A DNA stretch of 57,729 nt from a virus: the IMG/VR virus record IMGVR_UViG_3300036900_000129, positions 1 to 57,729 of that record; one strand, given 5' to 3'. A program made the translations under genes and the position numbers. Of the stretch, positions 33,472 through 49,972 are shown one piece after another. Below the pieces are notes generated by a model. That model was not told the origin of the DNA, made no database searches, and saw nothing but the letters and a program-made list of their open reading frames with translations. How positions within the stretch are numbered: position 1 is the stretch's first letter; each line of letters begins with the position of its first letter.

Positions 33472-33770
33472 GGCTTGGCCGGCGGGGTAAGGACGGGGTT
33501 GCCGCCCCATTCCTCGTCGTCACGGGCCAGGTCCGCGATGACGCCTTCCGGGTCTACCCGCTCCAGGGTGAGCCCGACCTTGGCGCGGATGTCAAGCAGC
33601 TTGCTGGTGTGCCCGGCGTACAGGTGCACGCCGAGGCTGGCCAGTTCCGCGCGGGCGCTGATCACCGCGATGCGCTCAGCGGTGCTGCCGCTGTTCTCGT
33701 TCCCGAGCGCGACTTCCCGCAGCTCGGCCAGCGCCGTCAGGTCCCTGTCCAGTTCAATGGTTCCGGGCAT
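33468..33770 (-). CDS. 100-residue helical protein, ENSG-motif family member 4
   Basis: ATG 33770 with GGGAGGTG upstream. LTALAELREVALGNENSGSTAERIAVISARAELASLGV is followed by HLYAGHTSKLLDIRAKVGL and an acidic end. It is the first gene of this small operon and the longest carrier of the shared motif. No known function. Confidence 0.6.
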   Translation of the reverse strand: MPGTIELDRDLTALAELREVALGNENSGSTAERIAVISARAELASLGVHLYAGHTSKLLDIRAKVGLTLERVDPEGVIADLARDDEEWGGNPVLTPPAKP

Positions 33771-33789
33771 CGGGCACCTCCCTCTCTTG

Positions 33790-33825
33790 TTAGGTACCTG
33801 GCATCATACACGTGCGTACTGGCGA
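33790..33825 (-). promoter_or_regulatory. Promoter-like TATGAT with CACGTG palindrome
   Basis: Read on the minus strand, TATGAT (33808-33803) lies 33 bases before the start at 33770 and is preceded by TACGCACGTGTA, a near-palindrome related to but distinct from the ACATGT operator family. Confidence 0.35.
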
Positions 33826-33855
33826 TCTGGCGTATGGCAAGGTCAGGGTATGCGA

Positions 33856-33886
33856 CAGGCCCCGGCCTGCTGGGGTCCGGGGCCTG
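33856..33886 (-). terminator. Hairpin terminator
   Basis: CAGGCCCCGG (33856-33865) pairs with CCGGGGCCTG (33877-33886) around an 11-base loop, after the stop of the gene ending at 33936. Confidence 0.6.
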
Positions 33887-33935
33887 CTGGAATTGCATGA
33901 CCTACGTTACGGCACGGTGAGCGTGAACGCCAGCG

Positions 33936-34190
33936 TCACGGCTGGGCTGCCCGCAGCGGAACAAGCTCCCCCGCTACCTCGGTGACAGCTTCGATGGTGA
34001 CCAGGTGACAGCGGCCTTCCAGTGCGCGCAGCAGCGGCGTGTCCAGGCACGCGTACCGGCCTGCTGTCACCTCAATCCACGTGTACCCGTCATGGTCACG
34101 GTAGACGGGCAGGTACAGGGGGCTCGCGGTCAGCAGGTCATCTGGGACTGCTTCACCTGTGATCACGGCACCGTCAAGTTGACGTGTCAT
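33936..34190 (-). CDS. Small protein, unknown
   Basis: 84 residues from ATG 34190; an ATG two codons earlier is too close to the GAGAGAGGA site. SPLYLPVYRDHDGYTWIEVTAGRYACLD and CHLVTIEAVTEVAGELVPL suggest a compact beta-rich fold. Last gene of its operon, before a terminator. Confidence 0.55.
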   Translation of the reverse strand: MTRQLDGAVITGEAVPDDLLTASPLYLPVYRDHDGYTWIEVTAGRYACLDTPLLRALEGRCHLVTIEAVTEVAGELVPLRAAQP

Positions 34191-38781: not shown

Positions 38782-38966
38782 CCTGCTGCCTCGGCTTCCT
38801 CAAGAACCGCCTCAACCTTGGCGGCGTCGTAACCCAGCCAGCCTGAGTCATGGTCACGGTGCTCATGCTGGTGCTGGTCTACGTTCTCGCTGTGCGGCCG
38901 GGCGATCGCCATCGGGTCGCAGTGAACACCGACCAGGTGCAGCGCTAGCTCCTCCGCTTCGGTCAT
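38778..38966 (-). CDS. Small His/Glu-rich protein
   Basis: 62 residues; ATG overlaps the stop of the DUF2637 gene region boundary. HLVGVHCDPMAIARPHSEN and DQHQHEHRDHD form a His-rich stretch that may bind metal; the ends are acidic helices. Confidence 0.45.
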   Translation of the reverse strand: MTEAEELALHLVGVHCDPMAIARPHSENVDQHQHEHRDHDSGWLGYDAAKVEAVLEEAEAAG

Positions 38967-39991
38967 CCTGCTGCCTCCTCCTGCCCGACCACCTTGAAGC
39001 GGTCACGGCGCATCACGTCGTTAACCCGTCCGATCGGCACGACCCGGCCGTTGCGAGCGAGGTACGCCACCACGTCCGCCGCCGCCGGCTCGCAACCCTG
39101 CTCGCTTCGCAGTGTTGCGAGTGCGAGCCTGATGGCCGCGGACTGTGAGCCGTGCCCGCCGCCGTTCGCAACAGGTGCGAGGGGCCGGCTCGCATTCGCG
39201 GTCGCACCCGCGCTCGCAGCGCTCGCAAGCGGGCTCGCGCTCGCACTGGCGGTGAGAGCAGGCCGTTCGCTGCTGCTCGCAACCGCTCTCGCAACGTCAC
39301 TCGCAGCAGGCACCGGCCGCTTGCGAGCACCCGCATTCGCTGTGCTCTTTGCGAGCCGCTTGCGAACAACCGCTCGCAGTTCCTTGATCGCAGTCCACGG
39401 TGCGCCGATACCCGGCACCCATACCAGCAGCCCGAACGGCGGCAGGGGTTCCACCCTGGCCTTGGCGTCATACCCGTGCTGCGCGCGTCCCACGTCGCGC
39501 CTGGCGGCCCCCAGGATGGCATGGGCCATCCAGTACACCATCACGCTCATCACGGGGAAGAACAGCTCCTCAGCCACGTTCCCGGACCCCAGCGCGCCAC
39601 GCCAGTTGATGAACGCTGACAAGCCCACCAGGACAAGCGCCATCAGGCGGAACTGGGCACCGCTCTCACCCTTCTCAATGCGGTCGAGTGCGAACCCGTA
39701 CACGACGATCGCTGCGATGTCGAGTGAGAGCGGGCCGAGAAGCGAGTGCAGCTGCGACCAGCGCAGGTCACCCTTGAAGAATGCGAGCAGCCCTGAGAAC
39801 GACATCGCTGCGACTGCGAACACCACCGTTGCGAGCAGTGCGAGCGTTGCGACTCGCCGTGCGCGGGTGAGAGTGCCTGCGGGCAGTGCGAGCGGTGCGA
39901 CTGGCTCGCTCGCGCTGCTCGCAACATCCGGCTCGCTCGCATTCTCATTCGCACTCGCAGGTACCAGCCGGCGCGAGAACCTGATCTTCAC
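38963..39991 (-). CDS. DUF2637-type multi-helix membrane protein
   Basis: GTG 39991 behind AAAGGGGAAC is chosen over an upstream ATG in Arg-rich sequence; 342 residues. Residues 40-170 hold four hydrophobic helices (ATLALLATVVFAVAAMSF, LLGPLSLDIAAIVVYGFAL, FRLMALVLVGLSAF, EELFFPVMSVMVYWMAHA), the DUF2637 pattern also found in SpdB-like spread proteins of Streptomyces plasmids. The C-terminal half is a disordered Ala/Ser-rich segment followed by a short helical domain (VVAYLARNGRVVPIGRVNDVMRRD). The gene is saturated with the hexamer TGCGAG in both orientations. Confidence 0.75.
   Translation of the reverse strand: MKIRFSRRLVPASANENASEPDVASSASEPVAPLALPAGTLTRARRVATLALLATVVFAVAAMSFSGLLAFFKGDLRWSQLHSLLGPLSLDIAAIVVYGFALDRIEKGESGAQFRLMALVLVGLSAFINWRGALGSGNVAEELFFPVMSVMVYWMAHAILGAARRDVGRAQHGYDAKARVEPLPPFGLLVWVPGIGAPWTAIKELRAVVRKRLAKSTANAGARKRPVPAASDVARAVASSSERPALTASASASPLASAASAGATANASRPLAPVANGGGHGSQSAAIRLALATLRSEQGCEPAAADVVAYLARNGRVVPIGRVNDVMRRDRFKVVGQEEAAG
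39050..39960. repeat. Dense TGCGAG/CTCGCA hexamer cluster
   Basis: By eye about 22 copies of TGCGAG or its complement in two blocks (39052-39375 and 39782-39955), plus many near matches (TGCGAA, TTCGCA). Copies occur in both orientations and in more than one reading frame of the overlapping gene, so the bias is unlikely to come from amino-acid choice alone. Confidence 0.65.
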
Positions 39992-40013
39992 TGGTGCGTT
40001 CCCCTTTCTTTGG

Positions 40014-40154
40014 TTAGTGGTCCCAGTCGCGTTCGCGGCCGCTCTTGTCCGCCTGCGCGTCCCAGGCATCTCGGATGCGCGGGTCTTCCGCAGGCGGGTT
40101 CTGCTCAGGGTCGGTGTTGCTGGCCGGGTCAGCCCAGCCGGGCAGCTTCGGCAT
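40014..40154 (-). CDS. 46-residue acidic peptide
   Basis: ATG 40154 behind GAGGAG; MPKLPGWADPASNTDPEQNP, then EDPRIRDAWDAQADKSGRERDWDH. Fills the space between the DUF2637 gene and the next gene precisely and uses a good ribosome site. Function unknown. Confidence 0.55.
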   Translation of the reverse strand: MPKLPGWADPASNTDPEQNPPAEDPRIRDAWDAQADKSGRERDWDH

Positions 40155-42371: not shown

Positions 42372-43136
42372 ATGCCAGCACGCCGGGCCGTGCTAGGGGC
42401 CGCATCCGCAGCAGCGCTCACCCTAGTCCTGCCGCTGACACTCGCCGGCAGCACCGCGCAAGCCGTCACCAACCAGTGCCTCAACACGCCCCGCCCCGTC
42501 AGCGGGCTCGTCGGCTGCGGCACCCTTTACACCCCCTACCTAGGCGGCGGGCCGCACAACCTCGCCCTTACCCTCACCGCCAGCAGCAACAGCTTCCTGG
42601 CACCCGTGCAGGTGGAAGTGTTCAGCGGCAGCAGCGCCCGCCAGGACTGGACGTTCTACCAGCTGTGCACCCGGATGAGCCTGTACCGCAGCGCCGCCAA
42701 GCCGTGCGGTGACGGCGGCAAGATCGACAAGAACCGCTTCGTCATCCAGTACACCCCGTTCGGCCACCAGCCCCCGGGCGGGGTCAACAGCCAGCAGAGC
42801 CTGTGCCTGGACGACGACAGCAGGCATGTGGTGCTGGCAAACTGCCAGTCGCACCGTGCGTACCTCCAGCCGGGATTCCCCAACCCGCCGTACAGTGACG
42901 GCACGCCTCCTGCGGTGCTGTCCGCTAACCCCGCTGAAGCGTGGATCTTCACCCCCGTCCACGGGGGTGTCACCATCCGCAACGCCGCCACCGGCCGGTA
43001 CCTGGACGACAACGCCAACGGCCCCGCCGGCACGAAGGTGATCACCTGGGAACGTAACGGGAGCGCCGACCAGGTGTGGGCGGTCCTCGGGTGCACCAGC
43101 CCGCTGACCGGCATGCCCGGGTACGGCGGCTGCTGA
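42372..43136 (+). CDS. Secreted beta-trefoil (ricin-B-like) protein
   Basis: 254 residues with a signal peptide (MPARRAVLGAASAAALTLVL... ending STAQA). The mature part shows trefoil-type repeats: SLCLDDDSRHVVLANCQ, VTIRNAATGRYLDDN, and WERNGSADQVWAVLGC, where the Q-x-W motif of ricin-B lectins is present as QVWAV. Six or more cysteines may form disulphides. It could bind glycans outside the cell. It is a plus-strand gene inserted in the minus-strand arm, with its own promoter-like signal: a moron. Confidence 0.65.
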   Translation: MPARRAVLGAASAAALTLVLPLTLAGSTAQAVTNQCLNTPRPVSGLVGCGTLYTPYLGGGPHNLALTLTASSNSFLAPVQVEVFSGSSARQDWTFYQLCTRMSLYRSAAKPCGDGGKIDKNRFVIQYTPFGHQPPGGVNSQQSLCLDDDSRHVVLANCQSHRAYLQPGFPNPPYSDGTPPAVLSANPAEAWIFTPVHGGVTIRNAATGRYLDDNANGPAGTKVITWERNGSADQVWAVLGCTSPLTGMPGYGGC

Positions 43137-48009: not shown

Positions 48010-49797
48010 TCAACCACCATGCTCAGCCATGAAGAACACACCTGAAGCGCACACCTGGTCACCCGTCACCTCAGCCAGGCCGTTGCTGCGCAGCGTCGAC
48101 AGGTAAGACCCGAACGTGCCGCCGCCCTGCTCGATCCCGGCCGCCTCGGCAAGCTCAGCGCGGCTGACGCTCGCCGGGTACACGGCCAGCAGGTGGTCAA
48201 GCATGGCCCGTGCGCCGGCCTTGAGCGCGGACCGCCACTGCTCACGGATCTCTGCGGCAGTCATCGGCTCGCCAGGCTCAACCCCGGCAGCGGCAAGCCC
48301 TGCCGGGGTGATCAGTACCAGGCCGTTTTCCTCGGTGATCAGGCCGTTAGTGCGGAGCGCGGAGAAGTAGCTGCCGAACGTGCCGCCTGACTTCTTGACG
48401 CTGCCAAGGGTTGCAAGTTGACCCCGGGTGACCTTAACCGGGTGCTGGCGGGCCAGCGCGGTGAGCATCCGCATTGCCCCGGCCTTGAGGTGCGGCACGT
48501 TACCAGATGCAGGTTCCTGCCGCGCCGCTCCCGGCGCAGCACGCGGACGCACAACTGGCGGGCGGGTCATGGTTGCAGCAGCAGGCCGGCTGACCTGGGC
48601 GAGCGCCAGTTCGATACCCCCGGTGATGTCCCGAAGGCCCGTGACGGCTTGCTCAAGCGCTGCCATGTCACCAGGGGACAGGACGGGTACCTCAATGCGC
48701 TCAGGCGGCCGGGCACGTTCGGCATTCAGCTGATCCGTCAAGGCGGCGACCTGCGCCCGCAGCTCAGCGGCCTCTGCCGGCTGGCGGGTGGCCAGTTGCC
48801 GCTCAAGCTCACCGATACGCCGCCGCAACACTACCGGGTCGTTGACTTCCGCTGCCTTGATAAGCGCGTCCATCCGCTTCAGGAGAGCACCCAGGTTGAT
48901 GTCCGCCAGTGTTGCGGGACGCTGCGCCCGCCTGGTCATGGTCGGGGTGGCACCGGAATCGAAGGTGCTGCGCTGCCTGAACTTGACGCGCTGAACCGCC
49001 GGCTGCCCGTGCCGCACCAGCCATTGCGGGGAGATCACCCAGCCTTCACCGTCAGCAAGAGACGGCAGCGACTCGACTATCTCCCGGCTCTGCGCATGGT
49101 AGTCAACCCATGCCTTGATGGCGGCCCTGTCCTGCGGGCTGGTAGTACGCATGGCGATCAGCGTTTCCGCTTGCGTCAGCACGTCCTTGTTGACGACTGC
49201 GCTGCGCTGGCTGAGCAGCGTCACCCCGAGACCGAACGAGCCGCCTTGCTTGACCAGCCGGGACCAGACGCCGACACACCGCGTCTGGTCCTGCATCACC
49301 CGCTGGGGCAGGTACTCGTCGGCTTCCTCAAGGAACAGGTGCCGTGGCTGCGGGTCCTTACGGTGCAGCCTGAACAGGTGCTCACCGAAATCCGCGAGGA
49401 ACCGCATCTGCGCGGCCTTGGACGGGAAGTCAGACACGTCCAAGATGCACGTCAGGTTCTCCGCGACGATGATCTCCGCGATGAGGTGACCGGACTCGGG
49501 TGTAAGCGGCAGGTCACCATGCAGGCCGCCGAATACCGGGACAGCCAGCCCGGGGCCCTGCCCGTCACCGGATGCCCGCAGCCCCCACCAGTCGCCTTTC
49601 GGGTCGATGGCCGCCCACGGCAGCCGTGCGTAGTACATCTCCTCAGCGAGTACCGCCCCGGTGTTCGACTTCCCGGCCCGCCTGACAGCAAGGATCGCCG
49701 CTGACTGCGTAACCATGTCAGCTGGGAGAGTCAGGGTCAGCCCCATGTTCAGGCTGCTGCGCGCCTGCACCGTTACAGCCTTGGCTTTAGCGGGCAT
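48010..49797 (-). CDS. HerA/FtsK-type DNA-pumping ATPase-like protein
   Basis: 595 residues. P-loop AILAVRRAGKSNTG (residues 35-47; first Gly of GxxxxGKS is Ala), then AAIDPKGDWWGL, CILDVSDFP, Walker B-like HLFLEEADEYLPQ (153-165) and LGVTLLSQRSAVVNKDVLTQAE, the DUF87/HerA pattern. Residues 330-360 are a coiled coil. Two winged-helix-like repeats (GGTFGSYFSALRTNGLI and GGTFGSYLSTLRSNGLA) close the protein and could bind a DNA motif. Such ATPases work as hexameric translocases in conjugation, recombination or defence. It overlaps a ribbon-helix-helix gene. Confidence 0.75.
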   Translation of the reverse strand: MPAKAKAVTVQARSSLNMGLTLTLPADMVTQSAAILAVRRAGKSNTGAVLAEEMYYARLPWAAIDPKGDWWGLRASGDGQGPGLAVPVFGGLHGDLPLTPESGHLIAEIIVAENLTCILDVSDFPSKAAQMRFLADFGEHLFRLHRKDPQPRHLFLEEADEYLPQRVMQDQTRCVGVWSRLVKQGGSFGLGVTLLSQRSAVVNKDVLTQAETLIAMRTTSPQDRAAIKAWVDYHAQSREIVESLPSLADGEGWVISPQWLVRHGQPAVQRVKFRQRSTFDSGATPTMTRRAQRPATLADINLGALLKRMDALIKAAEVNDPVVLRRRIGELERQLATRQPAEAAELRAQVAALTDQLNAERARPPERIEVPVLSPGDMAALEQAVTGLRDITGGIELALAQVSRPAAATMTRPPVVRPRAAPGAARQEPASGNVPHLKAGAMRMLTALARQHPVKVTRGQLATLGSVKKSGGTFGSYFSALRTNGLITEENGLVLITPAGLAAAGVEPGEPMTAAEIREQWRSALKAGARAMLDHLLAVYPASVSRAELAEAAGIEQGGGTFGSYLSTLRSNGLAEVTGDQVCASGVFFMAEHGG

Positions 49798-49972
49798 CGG
49801 CTGTTCCTCTCTCGGTTTGCTGTTCCTGCTGCTGTGTCCACTCGTCGGCCAGCATCACGAGCACCTGGCTCATGGTCATGCGGCGCAGCGCGCACGCGGC
49901 CTTGAAACGGGCGCGCAGGTCATCAGGGAAGCTGCTGACTTCGAGCTTCTGGTTTCTGTCCCTGGTGTCCAT
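49787..49972 (-). CDS. Ribbon-helix-helix DNA-binding protein
   Basis: 61 residues: KLEVSSFPDDLRARFKAACA (ribbon plus helix) and MTMSQVLVMLADEWTQQ (second helix), the Arc/MetJ/CopG layout. The Gln-rich tail may mediate dimers. It sits directly upstream of the HerA-like ATPase (11-base overlap), a pairing like partition or transfer auxiliaries. Confidence 0.65.
   Translation of the reverse strand: MDTRDRNQKLEVSSFPDDLRARFKAACALRRMTMSQVLVMLADEWTQQQEQQTERGTADAR

Follow-up and report, generated by a model that had tools for sequence, protein, structure and literature searches.

A DUF2637-type membrane protein gene of a tailed phage is packed with the hexamer TGCGAG, and genes of the same type in other phages, phage satellites and plasmids, nearly all from Streptomyces where the host is known, carry comparable arrays of a hexamer of their own. 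We consider it somewhat probable (roughly 55%) that such a gene is the DNA address of its own element, and that the array is read by the C-terminal HTH domain of the encoded protein, which would tether the genome to the membrane.

The TGCGAG array in the window

The window, that is the whole stretch of DNA analysed, comprises the whole of a virus record (57,729 bases). Its plus strand carries genes for terminase, portal, protease, tail and lysin proteins, and the early region on the minus strand encodes a RecE-like exonuclease, RecT, a HerA-like ATPase, an RHH protein and the DUF2637-type protein (Table 1). On the plus strand inside this early region, an ORF (42372-43136) combines a signal-peptide-like start with a ricin-type beta-trefoil lectin domain. 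The RHH protein (61 amino acids, 49787-49972, minus strand) is ParG-like at Pfam's cut-off and its gene overlaps the HerA-like gene; no RHH gene was found beside the HerA-like gene of G001, the contig with the nearest relative found. When viral_contigs was scanned with either the window protein or that relative (L009), nothing but L009 and the query itself was returned, thus close relatives of the window phage are rare there.

Table 1. Coordinates of the DUF2637-type gene, the parts of its protein and the array blocks
Feature	Position	Strand	Basis or content
DUF2637-type membrane protein gene, 368 aa, holds the array	38963..40069	-	Pfam PF10935 and AF2 model
Four transmembrane helices, residues 66-197	39479..39874	-	AF2 H66-100, H106-132, H138-160, H165-197
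Disordered linker, residues 249-304	39158..39325	-	pLDDT <50 at 249-254 and 265-304; among the densest array parts in the motif map
C-terminal three-helix HTH-like domain, residues 306-355, proposed array reader	39005..39154	-	pLDDT about 90; second model (domain alone); alignment
Array block 1	39052..39378	both orientations	15 TGCGAG over linker and HTH DNA
Array block 2	39782..39959	both orientations	7 TGCGAG over DNA for the disordered N-terminus and transmembrane helix 1

The window has 30 copies of TGCGAG, of which 22 are inside the DUF2637 gene (39052-39959), 12 on the coding strand and 10 on the template strand; the other eight are dispersed across 56 kb. This agrees with the first-pass annotation, which described the gene as saturated with the hexamer in both orientations and saw few copies in neighbouring genes. 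Dinucleotide shuffles of the whole window give 52 expected copies in all, against the 30 observed. Of the core TGCGA, 35 copies are in the gene and 64 in the other 56.6 kb, and TTGCGAGC has eight copies in the gene and none elsewhere in the window.

A genome-wide count of TGCGAG and a comparison with a codon-shuffle null model had been proposed together with these claims. Synonymous codon shuffles of the gene contain 2.9 copies on average and eight at most, shuffles of the codon order contain 1.45 on average, and none of 3000 shuffles of either kind reaches 22. If the highest-scoring of all hexamers is compared in each sequence, the gene has a z of 13.8 and 300 shuffles reach 6.6 at most. TGCGAG in the DUF2637 gene is also the strongest cluster of the genome when every hexamer is scored in every 1-kb window. 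The shuffle tests and the rank within the genome therefore show that the cluster is real and acts at the DNA level. Selection on DNA, as argued in the first-pass annotation, is strongly supported by the synonymous shuffles, the best-of-all-hexamer shuffles and the comparison of site positions between relatives given below.

The arrangement of the copies differs in part from what had been described. The two blocks lie largely in DNA coding for disordered parts of the protein as claimed, but block 2 also covers transmembrane helix 1 and block 1 extends into the C-terminal HTH. The copies are found in mixed frames and both orientations, but with a bias, since 10 of the 12 coding-strand copies read xxT-GCG-AGx and 8 of the 10 template-strand copies read CTC-GCA. 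Gaps within the blocks range from 6 to 54 bases, orientation is mixed and the Rayleigh R at 10.5 bp is 0.08. Irregular spacing is general among the arrays, mixed orientation is seen in most of them, and no convincing helical phasing of the sites was found. In the rest of the window the word is mildly avoided (4 copies compared with 10.9 expected). Avoidance outside the gene was rejected as a general feature, because it is not significant in the satellites Mulchroom and MiniFlayer and is reversed in the phage Kromp.

Arrays with other words in phages, satellites and plasmids

The words found across the lineages include TGCGAC, TGTCCG, TGTCAC, TGTCGT, TGCGAA, TGTGCC and GGAACG, with about 10-30 copies per gene. 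The nearest relative found, L009 in the 128-kb contig G001, is 52% identical to the window protein over the membrane domain. A conserved protein without the hexamer had been named in the first-pass annotation as a finding that would speak against selection on DNA. By the letter this is what L009 displays, with no TGCGAG, but the array is kept as 19 copies of TGCGAC, in which the last base is changed. In the temperate Streptomyces phage Kromp and in phages and prophages akin to it, the gene mostly contains 17-26 TGTCCG, and more distant members of this type have 10-12 TGTCCG or TGTCCT. In the BE-cluster phages, which are presumed to be virulent, 10-21 TGTCAC are found in a DUF2637-type gene with a GC content near 50%. 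Both known satellites of BE phages carry an array gene, Mulchroom with 17 TGTCGT and MiniFlayer with 16 TGCGAA. The array-bearing plasmids include circular and linear Streptomyces plasmids: the gene of the S. noursei plasmid has 12 TGTGCC, and among four large linear plasmids three have clear words of their own (25 GGAACG, 16 CGAACC and 28 CCGGACC) and one has a weak array. No Pfam match was found for MiniFlayer and three of the linear-plasmid genes, which were assigned to the family via tblastn or record annotation.

A matrix of word counts by gene is nearly diagonal, and this computation shows that the words are lineage-specific. Eight array-bearing records were scanned in full (the window, G001, G002, Kromp, Mulchroom, Jay2Jay, the S. 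noursei plasmid and MiniFlayer), and in each of them the top-ranked hexamer cluster is this gene. In nine array genes, the window gene and eight others, none of 300 best-of-all-hexamer shuffles reaches the observed value, with a narrow passage for Jay2Jay (z 5.5, shuffle maximum 5.3) and Mulchroom (6.4 and 6.2).

The helper phages and their satellites use different words. MindFlayer has 19 TGTCAC and its satellite MiniFlayer 16 TGCGAA; MulchMansion has 15 TGTCAC and its satellite Mulchroom 17 TGTCGT. Each of these genes contains 0-1 copies of the word of its partner, so that the words of co-infecting helper and satellite are mutually exclusive.

The copy number is maintained in the relatives and the positions are not. 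The genes of 14 BE phages have 10-21 sites each, distributed on 63 aligned positions, and some pairs with about 65% identity have no site position in common. Of 52 site positions in the window and G001, 2 are common to both; the first-pass annotation had proposed to look for conserved motif positions across relatives. Because the positions turn over almost completely while the counts stay high, the number must be selected; the computation shows that selection acts on the number of sites and not on their position. In Jay2Jay and the S. noursei plasmid the array runs past the end of the gene into the next gene. In an array-poor relative of the Kromp type (L136, 2500-2896), eight TGTCCG are found just upstream and four inside the gene; the array looks as though it had been displaced from it.

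Second clusters of the same word occur in two of the phages. In Kromp, copies of TGTCCG, some of them forming palindromes (TGTCCGCGAACGCGGACA), surround gp38, the gene of the immunity repressor (L054:30228-30738), and are possibly operators sharing the half-site. A minor cluster of about ten TGTCAC in 1.3 kb covers the genes for a DUF3307 protein and a PhoD-like hydrolase in the BE phage Jay2Jay (78781-80051, L072:1782-3052).

Other genes and chromosomal paralogues were used for comparison. The best z has a median of 4.1 and a maximum of 7.0 in 63 further genes, each 600 bases or longer, of the same records. The maximum belongs to a DUF927 gene in the Planobispora plasmid pPR2 (L070:1807-5154), where CCGGAG is found 25 times compared with 9.4 by codon shuffle. 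A DUF2637 relative is present in 146 of 150 sampled Streptomyces genomes, and no array was found in 27 chromosomal Streptomyces paralogues (best z median 3.6, maximum 5.5). The three paralogues examined in full end in a charged tail and have no C-terminal HTH. The observed value is reached by 76 of 300 best-of-all shuffles for the chromosomal gene L039 and by 70 of 300 for Circinus.

All strong arrays are found in genes for proteins with a C-terminal HTH-like domain, and the association of arrays with this domain is shown by computation. No clear array is seen in the subclade L129/L131/L134 (and L133), which is nested in the Kromp/TGTCCG clade and has lost the second HTH helix from its C-terminus. 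Within this subclade, a DUF2637 gene with an altered C-terminus (L131:2820-3450) contains eight CGCCTG, with one more copy elsewhere in 6.4 kb, and this may be a weak array with a new word. The membrane domain and the HTH are both present in Circinus, and DUF2637 proteins with HTH-like C-termini are found in pNBC00691 and pPR2, with no array in the gene in any of the three. A search for gapped or dyad motifs in the array-less relatives gave nothing strong. The record of the linear plasmid pNBC00691 also ends in about 440 bases of (CA)n and a poly-A/T run (33491-34026, L118/L119), which is probably a sequencing or assembly artefact.

The proposed reader and competing explanations

The window protein belongs to DUF2637 by the Pfam gathering score as a 6-frame match (25.4 bits); the called protein reaches 22.6 bits with a cut-off of 22.8. 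Scores over the cut-off are also found for L009, Kromp and the BE phages. According to the AF2 model the protein has a disordered N-terminus (before residue 62), four transmembrane helices, a linker that is disordered around residues 249-304 and a C-terminal HTH-like domain. Structural searches with the whole model and with the C-terminal domain gave no significant match. For the domain, the top matches (E about 0.4-3) are HTH domains interspersed with proteins that do not bind DNA; the HTHs of sigma factors, Fur/Zur, LexA and ArgR are among these weak matches, and so is calmodulin. A sequence search of solved structures with the domain gave nothing useful. The helix pattern and the weak structural matches make an HTH a lead for this domain.

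What the array-bearing elements share is a DUF2637-type protein that carries its own HTH at the C-terminus. The residue preceding the Val/Leu/Ile of the presumed recognition helix is Thr in the TGTC lineages and Arg or Lys in the TGCGA lineages; in the window the Arg of GRVND aligns with the Thr of TGTC-type relatives. MiniFlayer, with TGCGAA, groups with Mulchroom and the BE phages, with TGTC words, in a tree of the membrane domain, far from the window. Judging from this tree, there were probably two origins of the TGCGA word, both accompanied by a basic residue. That the change from Thr to Arg or Lys tracks the word is suggestive, with two apparently independent switches and with the S. noursei and linear-plasmid types outside the pattern.

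From these observations we infer a tether. The DUF2637-type protein would be anchored in the membrane by its four helices and would carry the HTH on a long flexible linker. The HTH would bind the element's own hexamer, in the window TGCGAG, of which about 20 copies are present in the DNA of the same gene, and the encoding genome might thereby be held to the membrane at this gene, probably by many bound protein copies at once. If each element evolves its own word, co-resident elements such as helper and satellite or phage and plasmid could avoid capturing each other. The tether would most likely serve positioning, segregation or spreading along the hypha, and a coupling to membrane-associated replication is possible. 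The plasmid members, the parA gene located one small gene upstream of the array gene in the S. noursei plasmid, and the SpdA2/sps system of pIJ101 favour segregation or positioning. No parA is named beside the gene in Kromp, the BE phages or the satellites, and there was no match among the window neighbours tested. Since the BE phages are presumed to be virulent, stable inheritance is not the whole story, and a role within one infection, in membrane-associated replication or spread along the mycelium, is suggested as well. The array-less genes of Circinus, pNBC00691 and pPR2 and the non-significant structural matches of the HTH speak against the array as an address read by this protein.

The array might instead be a by-product of a low-complexity protein with linker repeats of Ala-Ser, Asp-Thr and Val-Thr, as most copies belong to a small number of codon contexts, such as GCG-AGC and CTC-GCA, and the DNA codes largely for disordered protein. 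This is refuted by the shuffle tests, in which the protein is preserved and the excess abolished, and the copies lie in several frames and both orientations, in DNA for transmembrane and HTH segments and in neighbouring genes; an origin of this kind is extremely improbable. Autoregulation, in which the protein or a repressor would shut the gene down from sites within it, is very unlikely. The palindromes flanking the Kromp repressor gene would fit such silencing, but about 20 sites over 0.4-0.9 kb with turnover of positions are not promoter-like, a membrane protein would be an unusual repressor, and no comparable second cluster is seen in the position list of G002, which is unannotated.

Reading by another protein, such as the HerA-like ATPase with its winged-helix repeats, the RHH protein or an FtsK-like translocase, would make the array a loading or orienting site of the clt or KOPS type. 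The HerA-like protein is common to the window and G001 (63% identical), a gene in Jay2Jay is annotated as an FtsK-like translocase, and the FtsK-like TraB reads 8-bp repeats at clt in Streptomyces conjugation (PMC4170104). However, G001 is the one other array-bearing record with a relative of the HerA-like ATPase, and FtsK or HerA matches are absent from Kromp, G002-G006, Mulchroom and the S. noursei plasmid, all of which carry arrays. The RHH gene was found neither in G001 nor in any other compared genome. The two candidate readers put forward in the first-pass annotation are therefore not upheld, as arrays are present in phages, satellites and a plasmid where neither is found, and the array instead tracks the DUF2637 gene and its HTH. 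With FtsK_SpoIIIE, the matches in all records are sub-threshold, in pNBC00691, pPR2 and LukeCage, and there is none in the window. A TraB/clt transfer locus is not supported, as no match to an FtsK-like translocase was found in the window or in most array-bearing records, and a separate reader is distinctly unlikely in general, although single elements may have a helicase-type reader. An iteron-like replication origin, in which the DUF2637 protein would anchor the replisome to the membrane, is also unlikely in general but may apply to single elements. It would account for many short repeats within one gene of the early region, but the spacing is irregular, orientation is mixed and there is no helical phase. 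The regular spacing and single orientation of an iteron origin are not seen in the window array. Satellites use the replication of the helper (PMC10690885) and yet have a word different from that of the helper, and the DUF2637-type protein has no initiator-like domain. Among the four site classes suggested at first (transfer, partition, orienting and iteron sites), partition or positioning is the best functional class, and a regular iteron origin is disfavoured.

Membrane tethering through the array would give the mobile DUF2637 members a candidate function, sequence-specific attachment of DNA to the membrane, and predicted binding words are now given for many elements at once. The odds are about even that these genes form a previously undescribed self-addressing class, in which the coding sequence is the cis-acting address and a fast-evolving, lineage-specific hexamer code keeps co-resident elements, helper and satellite among them, orthogonal. 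If true, this is a new way of marking self DNA and provides a natural set of HTH-word pairs for reading the specificity code. It would also explain the retention of the DUF2637-type membrane gene in both of the nearly gene-stripped satellites, which have 20-26 genes, lack primase homologues and depend on helper replication (PMC10690885).

Comparison with known systems

In the literature searched, one unrelated mention was all that was found on DUF2637, and SpdA2/sps was the sole close precedent found for arrays embedded in a gene. Plasmid centromere (parS) arrays have many short copies in both orientations at one place and are bound by RHH proteins. The DUF2637 arrays are similar in copy density and orientation, and the S. 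noursei plasmid has parA nearby. They differ in being located inside a membrane protein gene, and the comparison revealed neither a partner ATPase nor an RHH gene conserved with the array.

The phi29 membrane proteins p16.7 and p1 tether phage replication to the bacterial membrane, but their reported partners are the terminal protein and single-stranded DNA and not a sequence array (PMC4974454). The clt repeats are likewise short, belong to a mobile element of Streptomyces and are recognised by a plasmid protein with sequence specificity (PMC4170104); the reader TraB is an FtsK-like ATPase, unlike the situation in most array-bearing elements, which have none. SpdB2 of pSVH1 and SLP2 is an integral membrane protein that is reported to bind DNA non-specifically and that stabilises SLP2 (PMC4170104). 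The likeness is that of a membrane protein of Streptomyces plasmids with DNA binding, in the case of SpdB2, and a stabilising effect on SLP2. Membership of the DUF2637-type proteins in the SpdB2 family is not supported, because the SpdB2-like protein of SLP2 has no DUF2637 match, no match to the alignment A4 profile and no array in its gene.

SpdA2 of the Streptomyces plasmid pIJ101 is a DNA-binding protein that recognises the sps site inside its own coding region, and removal of sps by base changes that preserve the protein lowers segregational stability as much as deletion of the gene (PMC4170104). SpdA2 is reported to recognise 1-3 copies of a conserved 12-bp palindrome, CGTCACGTGACG, common to many plasmids (PMC4170104), whereas the DUF2637 type is a four-helix membrane protein with 10-30 non-palindromic hexamers and a word for each lineage. 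The window array consists of single non-palindromic hexamers and not of this palindrome. The likeness, for which no homology is claimed, is that both have candidate sites inside the coding region of the protein itself, beyond what codon choice gives, with binding predicted in the DUF2637-type genes.
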